Below are positions 1 to 5,063 of a stretch of DNA of 5,147 nt, one piece after another. Origin of the DNA: Candidatus Eiseniibacteriota bacterium (GTDB taxonomy: Bacteria; JAFGKV01); contig JALOPK010000263.1 in NCBI GenBank assembly GCA_025453925.1, positions 1-5,147 of the forward strand, read 5' to 3'. Made by a program: the position numbers and the translations under genes. The notes under the pieces are model-generated. The model did not search any database, was not told where the DNA came from, and saw only the letters and a program-made list of their open reading frames with translations. Each line of letters opens with the position of its first letter. Position 1 is the first letter of the stretch.

Positions 1-100
1 TGGTGCTGGCAATGCAGACCGACGAAAACCACCTCACGCTGGAGTACCGGCCCCGGTGGTGGCGGCTGAGAGGCTTCAGCCTGAACTCAACTATTCAGCT
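1..100. other. Window edge, no gene assigned
   Basis: This stretch lies downstream of the minus-strand chimeric gene and runs to the window edge. Plus-strand frames 2 and 3 are open across it but continue into the antisense of the chimera, and none has a recognisable motif. Frame 1 closes with TGA at 67-69 after a Gly/Thr-rich low-complexity stretch. A gene end from the left edge cannot be excluded, but nothing supports one. Confidence 0.3.
67..89 (-). terminator. Weak hairpin after the chimeric gene
   Basis: Bases 67-75 and 78-89 pair as TGAG+AGGCT against AGCCT+CTCA, with a 3-base bulge (GAA at 83-85) and a very short loop. It starts 12 bases past the minus-strand stop codon at 101-103, where a terminator would sit. 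No T-run follows on the minus strand, so an intrinsic terminator is only a weak possibility. Confidence 0.2.
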
Positions 101-367
101 TCAATCGTCGACCCGGCCGCGCATGGCCTTCACCCGGCCGCGCTTGACTTTGCCGTCCAGCCGTTTTTCCTTGGACCCGCGGGTCGGCCGGGTGGGCCTG
201 CGCTTGCGGCGTGGTACGGCAATGCCGGCAATCAGTTCCTGAAGCCGCCGGAACGCCTCCGCCTTGTTCTTCTCCTGGCTGCGGTACTGCTGGGCCTTGA
301 TGACGACCACCCCCTCCCGGGTGATGCGCTGGTCGTTCAGCTTTAATAGACGCTCCTTGATGAGACC
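101..367 (-). pseudogene. arfB: ArfB (peptidyl-tRNA hydrolase / ribosome rescue factor) C-terminal fragment
   Basis: ArfB enters stalled non-stop ribosomes, places its basic C-terminal tail in the empty mRNA channel and hydrolyses peptidyl-tRNA with a GGQ motif. Residues 292-376 of the chimeric frame carry the family's second half: [20 protein letters not shown], then [20 protein letters not shown], then the basic tail [15 protein letters not shown] and VKAMRGRV before the stop. This parallels E. coli YaeJ, whose corresponding segments read [41 protein letters not shown] and VKAMRGKV (from memory). E. coli ArfB is about 140 residues; the ~50 residues missing here hold the GGQ loop, so hydrolysis is impossible. 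The fragment reads in frame from a receptor with a signal peptide, which would send it away from the ribosome. Recognition of the family is firm; treating it as a broken copy is inference. Confidence 0.88.
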
Positions 368-1231
368 GGGCATGGCGCGTGTTCCGTCATCGATGCCCAG
401 GAAGTCATGATCCCCGCCCTTGTAGCTGTACATGTCCTTGGCCGTCGTCGCCGTATTCATCCCGCTGGATGATGAGACTGAAAAGGTGAGGTGCTCGGGA
501 TACTCCTTGCCCACGATTAGAACGCAGCCCCCCGCGAAATCGCCTGGAAGGTCGGGTGTGAAGTTCTTGGCGATCTGCACGTGATCCAGCAGACTGGCGG
601 GAAACACATCCATGGGGACAATGACCCGGTTGGGCTCGGGGCTGGGTACTTTGGCCCCGTTGAGCAGCGCGGTACCGTACCGGCCTCCCAGGCCGCGGAC
701 ATAGGCGTGCTTGCCGACCATGGTAACGCCGGTCACGCGCTTCAAGGCCTCGCCCGCGTCCGACGAACTGGTCTTGCTCATCAGCTCAGCACTGATGCCG
801 TCGGTGATCTTGTCGCTCCTCTGCTGAATCCGAAGCAGACCAGCCTCGGCAGATTCCATGGCCTCCGCGGTGACTTCGACGGTAATGCCAAGGGTGATGG
901 GTTGCTGTTCGAGGGCGAAGTCCATGGTTACCGCCATGCCCGACTCGACGCGCACTCCGGTGACCGTGCGGGCCGTGTGCCCGATGAGCTCCGCCCTGAG
1001 CGTGTGGACGCCGGGAGGCACCCGCAGGGCGTATCGCCCGTCGATGTCGACTGTCACGCCCAGTTCAGATCCCTCGACGAACACCACCGCTCCCGGCAGG
1101 GGTTCGCCGGATTCGGAGTCCACCACCATGCCGCGTATGGTGCCCGTTTCTTGGGAGTGAGAGAGCCACGGCATAGAGAGGAACAGCCCTGCCAGGAAGA
1201 GCATCCTGGCGGACGAATTGAATCTGAACAT
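101..1231 (-). CDS. TonB-dependent receptor N-terminus fused in frame to ArfB C-terminal half (chimera)
   Basis: This is a 376-residue frame. Residues 1-27 form a signal peptide (short basic start, hydrophobic core [14 protein letters not shown], cleavage likely near SHS-QE). Residues ~28-115 are a carboxypeptidase-regulatory-like beta sandwich ([20 protein letters not shown], then [20 protein letters not shown]). Residues ~137-245 are a TonB receptor plug: [50 protein letters not shown] and [10 protein letters not shown]. Residues ~246-288 look like the first barrel strand and loop ([19 protein letters not shown]). The frame then changes identity: residues ~292-376 match the C-terminal half of ArfB. 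A normal receptor of this type continues with several hundred more barrel residues, so it cannot form a pore or channel. GAGGAG lies 8 bases before ATG 1229-1231, fixing the start. Cys236 replaces the Ser usual in the plug motif FAGGSV. The product would be exported and is probably non-functional as either parent. A true fusion or an assembly join are both possible. Confidence 0.85.
   Translation of the reverse strand: [376 protein letters not shown]
365..1231 (-). pseudogene. TonB-dependent receptor, N-terminal part only (barrel missing)
   Basis: This segment encodes residues 1-289 of the chimera and holds every exported, regulatory and plug element of a receptor of the Bacteroidota/Gemmatimonadota-like class with a carboxypeptidase-regulatory-like domain. 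Family members normally run to about 800-1000 residues, with a 22-stranded outer-membrane barrel after the plug. Here the barrel stops after its first strand region at [10 protein letters not shown]. No TonB box is obvious between the regulatory domain and plug; the segment [17 protein letters not shown] (residues 110-126) sits where one would be expected. Substrate cannot be inferred without the barrel. The plug motifs are intact, so the loss looks like a single event rather than gradual decay. Confidence 0.82.
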
Positions 1232-2564: not shown

Positions 2565-5063
2565 ATGCCCATCATCGAGAAACTCGGCTCGTTCTACCTG
2601 GGTCGCGAGTACGATCTCGCCACACGCACCCGCCGTGACGCCGCAATCAACTACGATGCCCGCGACCTCGTCACCCACGCCGTGTGCGTCGGCATGACTG
2701 GCTCCGGCAAGACCGGGCTCTGCATCGACCTCCTGGAAGAAGCGGCGATCGACCAGGTCCCCGCCATCATCATCGATCCCAAGGGCGACATTGCCAATCT
2801 GCTCCTGAAGTTCCCCGCGCTGCGGCCTGGAGACTTCGAGCCCTGGGTCAATGTGGATGATGCCCGGCGCAAGGGCATGAGTCTGCAGGAGTACGCGTCG
2901 TCCGTGGCCGCGACATGGGCCAAGGGCCTGGCCGACTGGGAACAGGGGCCGGAGAGAGTGCTCCTCGCCAAGGAAAGCGCCGAGGTCCGGGTGTTCACCC
3001 CGGGTTCGGACGCCGGGATTCCCGTGTCCATTCTGGCATCCCTCGCCGCACCCCGCCTGAGCTGGGATGACGACGGCGAGGCCATCCGGGAGCAGATCCA
3101 GGGTACCGTGAGCGCCCTGCTGGGTCTCGTTGATGTTCAGACTGACCCTCTTCAGAGCCGCGAGCATATCCTCCTTTCGACCATCGTTGAGCACTATTGG
3201 CGCCAGGGGCGGGATCTGGATCTGCCGACGCTTATCAAGGCCGTGCAGTCGCCGCCGGTTCGCCAGCTTGGCGTGTTCGACGTCGACACCTTCTTCCCCG
3301 AGAAGGACCGTTTCGGCCTGGCGCTGCGGCTGAACAGCATCATTGCCTCCCCGGGGTTTGCCGCCTGGCTCAGTGGTGAACCACTGGATGTCGAACAGCT
3401 TCTCCACGACCATGGCGGACGGCCGCGGCACAGTATCTTCTATCTCGCCCACCTGAGTGAACCGGAGCGGATGTTCTTCGTGACCCTGCTGTTGGAGCAG
3501 GTCGTGTCGTGGGTGCGCCGTCAGTCCGGCACCACCAGCCTTCGTGCACTGCTCTACTTCGACGAGGTCTTCGGCTACTTCCCTCCCGTGAGCATGCCCC
3601 CGTCCAAGCGACCTCTGATGACACTGCTGAAACAGGCGCGGGCGTCAGGCCTCGGCGTGCTGCTTTGCACCCAGAATCCAGTTGATCTTGACTACAAGGG
3701 TTTGAGCAATGCCGGCACCTGGTTCGTCGGCAAGCTGCAGACCGACCGCGACAAGGCGCGCATGTTGGATGGCCTGGAATCGGTGAGCGCGGAGGGAGGC
3801 ACGGCGACTGATCGTGGCGAGCTGGAGCGCATCATCGCGGGGCTGGACTCACGCATTTTCCTGCTCCACAACGTCCACTCCGGCTTGCCCGTCGTGTTTG
3901 AGACTCGCTGGGCGATGAGCTACCTGCGCGGACCGTTGACGCGGAGCCAGCTCCGTGCGCTGGCGCCCCCGAAGACCCCGTCGGAGCCTTCCGTTCCCGT
4001 GGCTACGGGAACCCCGGCCGCCCCGCCGTCGGTAGCGCCGGTCGCTCCTTTCCCGCTCGCCGCGAGTCGTGACACTCCGCCGGTGCTCCCTGCCGATGTC
4101 CCGGTTGTCTTCCTGCCGATTCGAGTGGGCTCGAGCACGGCACGGCAGAAAGCTGGCGCGGCACCTGTCGCAGGCGCTCCTGCCCTTGCCTATGAGCCGG
4201 CCCTTGCAGTGCTGAGCCAGGTCGGATTCCATGACCCCCGTCGCGGCGTGAGCCTATTGCGCCGCGACGGGATGCTGGTGCCGCCCGAGAGTCTCACTCC
4301 CGTCGCGCGATGGGATGAGGCGGAAGCCTTTGACATCGCGCCGGCAGACCTGGCGGCCTCTGGTGAGCCGGGTGCACGCTTCAGCGACCTGCCCCGGGAG
4401 TTGAGCACCGCCGCGTCACTCCGAGGGTTCGGTCGCACGGCGGCAGACCACCTGTATCGCCAGGCACGGCTTGAGATCTGGCATTGTCCCGCCCTCGACC
4501 TGTTCGGCGCGCCGGGAGAGACCGAGGGGGCGTTCAGGGTGCGCGTGCAGCATGCCGCGCACGAAAGGCGAGACGACGAAGTGCAGGCGATGCGGCGCTC
4601 ACTGGATGATCGCCGCGACAGGCTGGAGGCACAACTGGAGCGTGAGCGAAGGGAGCTCGAACGTGATCGCGAGCGGCACTCGGCCCGGCAGCGGGAGGAA
4701 CTCCTCTCCGCAGGTGAGTCGGTTGTCCGCATGCTGGGACTTTTCGGACGCCGGCGGAGCGCGAGCATCTCCAAGGCGGCGACCAAGCGCCGGATGACTT
4801 CATCCGCGGGGGCGGAGGTGGAAGAGTCGGAAATGGAGATCACCCGCCTGCGCGAAGAGATCGATGAACTGCGGGCAACCATCGAACGGAACGCCGGAGA
4901 GGTCGCCCAGCGATGGGAACGCACGGCCTCTGATATCAAGGCCCATGTCATCACCCCTCGTCGCAGCGATGTCACGGTCGAACTCGTCGCCGTTGCCTGG
5001 GTCCCCTACTGGGAGTTCGGCGCGCCCGGAACCACGCTGCAGCGCGTACCGGCGTGGCGGTAG
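2565..5063 (+). CDS. HerA/FtsK-superfamily P-loop ATPase with coiled-coil C-terminus
   Basis: This 832-residue soluble protein (no signal or membrane segment) is a predicted ring-type ATPase of the DUF87/HerA-like group. Motifs: Walker A GMTGSGKT at 43-50; the superfamily strand IIIDPKGD at 68-75; Walker B ALLYFDEV at 328-335 (Asp333, Glu334); sensor strand LLCTQNP at 366-372; and GTWFVGKLQTDRDKAR at 384-399, whose arginines are candidates for the finger acting on the next subunit. Only ~40 residues precede Walker A, too few for the HAS barrel of classical HerA. Residues ~467-510 are a Pro/Ala/Val linker. The remaining half has a mixed domain (~511-660), a charged coiled coil (~664-716), a basic patch LGLFGRRRS to ATKRR (~724-743), a second coiled coil (~752-785) and a closing strand VTVELVAVAWVPYWEF (803-818). 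The family is recurrent in bacterial genomes but, to my knowledge, uncharacterised. DNA or protein translocation is inferred from the fold. No nuclease partner lies within the window. The ribosome binding site GGAGG supports the start. Confidence 0.88.
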   Translation: MPIIEKLGSFYLGREYDLATRTRRDAAINYDARDLVTHAVCVGMTGSGKTGLCIDLLEEAAIDQVPAIIIDPKGDIANLLLKFPALRPGDFEPWVNVDDARRKGMSLQEYASSVAATWAKGLADWEQGPERVLLAKESAEVRVFTPGSDAGIPVSILASLAAPRLSWDDDGEAIREQIQGTVSALLGLVDVQTDPLQSREHILLSTIVEHYWRQGRDLDLPTLIKAVQSPPVRQLGVFDVDTFFPEKDRFGLALRLNSIIASPGFAAWLSGEPLDVEQLLHDHGGRPRHSIFYLAHLSEPERMFFVTLLLEQVVSWVRRQSGTTSLRALLYFDEVFGYFPPVSMPPSKRPLMTLLKQARASGLGVLLCTQNPVDLDYKGLSNAGTWFVGKLQTDRDKARMLDGLESVSAEGGTATDRGELERIIAGLDSRIFLLHNVHSGLPVVFETRWAMSYLRGPLTRSQLRALAPPKTPSEPSVPVATGTPAAPPSVAPVAPFPLAASRDTPPVLPADVPVVFLPIRVGSSTARQKAGAAPVAGAPALAYEPALAVLSQVGFHDPRRGVSLLRRDGMLVPPESLTPVARWDEAEAFDIAPADLAASGEPGARFSDLPRELSTAASLRGFGRTAADHLYRQARLEIWHCPALDLFGAPGETEGAFRVRVQHAAHERRDDEVQAMRRSLDDRRDRLEAQLERERRELERDRERHSARQREELLSAGESVVRMLGLFGRRRSASISKAATKRRMTSSAGAEVEESEMEITRLREEIDELRATIERNAGEVAQRWERTASDIKAHVITPRRSDVTVELVAVAWVPYWEFGAPGTTLQRVPAWR

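Follow-up and report, generated by a model that had tools for sequence, protein, structure and literature searches.

The window analysed here, 5,147 bp long, is the entire contig C297 of the host assembly (G000), which comprises 3.9 Mb in 502 contigs and is 82% complete and 2.9% contaminated. It carries one long plus-strand gene, a minus-strand open reading frame close to one contig end, and two joins between gene pieces within this end. The features, in window coordinates, are the following:

3-95, plus strand: internal fragment of a GMC-type FAD oxidoreductase, cut by the contig end and by a join; approximately residues 380-411 of about 519, with 75% amino-acid identity to the query protein
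91-101, no strand: second join, where the arfB stop codon abuts the GMC oxidoreductase fragment; similarity to GMC genes extends as far as 88-91 (DNA) or about 95 (peptide), that to arfB as far as 100
100-372, minus strand: 3′ part of arfB, of Deltaproteobacterial type, corresponding to ArfB residues ~60-148 and lacking GGQ; the 273 bp that align with an intact arfB in JACRCN010000071.1 (L062) are 92% identical in nucleotide sequence
about 366-381, minus strand: first join, from receptor to arfB, in frame; receptor homology reaches residue ~288-294, arfB homology starts at residue ~288
373-1231, minus strand: TonB-dependent receptor gene, 5′ part only (putative signal peptide, CarboxypepD_reg, plug and first strand, no barrel), recognised by Pfam and NCBIfam; 41% identical to L013, a receptor that is intact
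2565-5063, plus strand: gene for a HerA/TraD-like ATPase of 832 aa; over its full length 63% identical in the relative of the same genus and 57% in that of the same family

Genomes of the same phylum available for comparison were two only, one belonging to the same genus and the other to the same family. As the HerA/TraD-like ATPase gene is conserved in both at the identities given above, the main part of the contig is host DNA. The ATPase itself has a long charged C-terminal region and stays below every Pfam and NCBIfam cut-off; it looks like a member of an undescribed subfamily. Between this gene and the receptor frame, a candidate minus-strand ORF (1469-2170, 233 aa) has no Pfam or NCBIfam match, and in the relatives G001 and G002 the ATPase gene has no equivalent ORF next to it. 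A search of the window against Rfam gave zero matches.

The minus-strand ORF 101-1231 consists of 376 codons, has a start codon and contains zero internal stops, which confirms the preliminary description in its central observation, namely that a TonB-dependent receptor and ArfB meet within a single open minus-strand frame, with the switch located at ~366-381. Pfam matches along this frame are CarboxypepD_reg (residues 31-108, 2.1e-17), Plug (PF07715, residues 142-232, 1.3e-07) and RF-1 (residues 304-371, 1.6e-09), and by inspection only its N-terminus looks like a Sec signal peptide. The plug domain of a TonB-dependent receptor is therefore present, but the 22-stranded beta-barrel is absent: intact relatives run ~650 residues further, where the ORF switches to ArfB instead. 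The rest of the receptor found no match in the host assembly, other contig ends included, in searches that used as queries one intact receptor and a two-sequence barrel profile, both distant, against an assembly that is 82% complete, the barrel profile being without a positive control in the genomes searched.

At the first join, intact receptors align with the ORF as far as residue ~288-294, the DDGTRALP motif included, and plasmid-borne receptors stop aligning at residue 288; from residue ~288 to the C-terminal end it is intact ArfB that aligns. No step in base composition marks this join. Microhomology at the switch, which had been put forward earlier, proved weak: a likeness of LP to MP exists in the protein, and the DNA offers only some 4-5 common bases.

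Beyond the join, residues 286-375 match positions 49-138 of the 140 positions of the NCBIfam ArfB model NF006718 (4.5e-30, above the curated cut-off). Since this match begins at profile position 49, the GGQ-containing N-terminal catalytic domain of ArfB is absent from the frame, and the basic C-terminal tail is present and near-identical to that of intact ArfB. The intact gene closest to it, in a Deltaproteobacteria MAG (L062), encodes 148 aa with GGQ at residue 37. Counted in 20-base bins, identity to this gene is 15-20 of 20 from position 360 to 101 and falls outside towards a background of 3-13 of 20, so that similarity is lost abruptly on either side of 100-372. Judged by this similarity, the arfB part of the window is foreign to the host.

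The host has, besides proteins of the size of RF1 and RF2, a 188-aa protein of its own with an RF-1 domain and GGQ, encoded on contig C79, and the relatives G001 and G002 have three release-factor-like genes each, none of which reaches the ArfB cut-off. A short GGQ release-factor-like protein below that NCBIfam cut-off recurs in the host lineage (L087 2704-3270, minus strand; L094 163-588, minus strand; 188 aa in G000 and 141 aa in G002). The RF-1-like gene at L094 163-588 (minus strand), which in G002 precedes the HerA homologue by ~2 kb on its upstream side, was considered as a syntenic source of the arfB piece and rejected, because its sequence resembles the 188-aa host protein of C79 and not the window's ArfB, and because its match to the ArfB model is confined to the GGQ stretch (positions 7-42).

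The second join, at ~91-100, was overlooked in the preliminary description. Past the arfB stop codon, the 100 bp that remain of the contig no longer follow the arfB locus of the Deltaproteobacterial MAG; instead, window positions 3-95 code on the plus strand, opposite to the arfB piece, for VLAMQTDENHLTLEYRPRWWRLRGFSLNST, an internal stretch of a GMC oxidoreductase. The GMC homologues, among them an intact protein (L106) with both GMC_oxred_N and GMC_oxred_C of Pfam, all run more than 100 residues further, and the similarity of the window ends sharply after LNST. At the DNA level the best matches of the fragment, in a search confined to the order of G041 and of the arfB-bearing MAG, are 74-79% identical and lie in six genomes of that order. 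No GMC protein matches were obtained elsewhere in G000 or in G001, G002 and G041, and none of the GMC or arfB loci examined had arfB and a GMC gene within ~2 kb of each other.

Two abrupt joins between pieces of at least three unrelated genes, two of which resemble Deltaproteobacterial DNA, thus lie less than 400 bp from the contig end, and the final 372 bp of the contig, as read from its matches, is made up of fragments of foreign genes. The parts match different organisms, the arfB piece a Deltaproteobacteria MAG, the GMC piece the order of that MAG, to which its DNA search was confined, and the native HerA-like gene the host lineage. We consider window positions 1 to ~372, at one extremity of contig C297, to be chimeric and to represent an assembly or library artefact, not a gene fusion, with a probability close to 0.88. 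A Deltaproteobacterial arfB scrap and a GMC oxidoreductase scrap would have been attached where a TonB-dependent receptor gene was broken off; the joining would have taken place during library preparation or metagenome assembly, that is, in vitro or in silico and presumably not in the cell, and the reading frame across the first join would have been kept by chance. With two orientations and three frames to choose from, about one random join in six keeps both, and an open frame therefore says nothing in favour of selection. On the other side stand the unchanged base composition at the first join and the failure to find the receptor barrel at another contig end, the latter of little weight given the distant queries and the incomplete assembly. 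The preliminary description had named an assembler joining two contigs as one of its alternatives, and the foreign arfB, the native main gene and the second join, situated 270 bp further, all speak for it. It had also looked to intact copies at separate loci for a decision; such a copy was found for arfB in another organism (L062), and for the receptor as distant relatives only (L088, L115).

Its other proposal, a microhomology-mediated deletion that created the fusion, is not supported. Loss of the DNA between a receptor gene and an adjacent arfB is rejected because it leaves the GMC fragment past the arfB stop, and with it the second join, unexplained; moreover, receptor and arfB parts lie together in one place in no genome searched. 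Nor was a second receptor-ArfB fusion encountered in 41 genomes of assorted families, in a degenerate-pattern scan of 84,980 species genomes, among the IMG/VR viral contigs or among the PLSDB plasmids, where no record covers 80% of the frame, and a native fusion is accordingly rejected. The same dearth of examples weighs against the idea that receptor and ArfB form a functional fusion protein with a novel role, which we regard as extremely improbable. Such a protein would be compatible with the uninterrupted frame, its start codon and its probable signal peptide, but the signal peptide would export the ribosome-binding tail from the cytoplasm, the beta-barrel is missing, and the frame has no GGQ domain, which catalysis needs (PMC7427801). 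Peptidyl-tRNA hydrolysis by ArfB depends on the GGQ motif of its N-terminal domain, and the protein inserts its C-terminal tail into the mRNA channel (PMC7427801). With the GGQ domain and the receptor barrel both absent, the product of a real join, too, would have lost the functions of both parents.

A genuine scar in the genome, left when foreign GMC and arfB pieces were ligated into the receptor gene by illegitimate recombination in the cell, with a dead receptor pseudogene as the outcome, appears unlikely. Small DNA scraps do undergo horizontal transfer, the frame is open, the joins are clean, and 92% identity to the nearest arfB fits a donor from the genus of G041. However, unrelated scraps of 273 bp and ~95 bp sit exactly at the contig end, the arrangement occurs in no relative, no mobile-element remains were recognised, and an artefact predicts the identical pattern. 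That the locus is real and that two Deltaproteobacterial scraps, captured side by side in a receptor gene, led to the expression and secretion of a protein that ends in an ArfB tail is very improbable. If the junction were true, it would represent captured foreign DNA scraps, probably functionless without a catalytic domain or barrel.

Read as a chimeric contig end, the case illustrates that an in-frame chimera in this position can pass as a natural fusion and clear the curated cut-offs of both parents (Plug and ArfB). Two lessons follow for supposed fusions: the stretch from the fusion to the contig end should be inspected, and a near-identical intact copy of either half should be looked for in another phylum.

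Compared with known systems, the receptor part resembles TonB-dependent receptors with an N-terminal CarboxypepD_reg (TIGR01782-like, PF07715) in its putative signal peptide, CarboxypepD_reg-type domain, plug and DDGTRALP motif, but differs from them in stopping at the first strand, with the barrel absent. The remainder of the frame is like the ribosome-rescue peptidyl-tRNA hydrolase ArfB (YaeJ; NF006718, PF00472) over the C-terminal ~89 residues, basic tail included, and unlike it in being devoid of the N-terminal GGQ domain and attached to a receptor. The contig end as a whole departs from the usual chimeric metagenome contigs in having one join in frame and in nothing else of note; like such misassembled contigs, it consists of gene fragments of different organisms abruptly joined close to the contig end.
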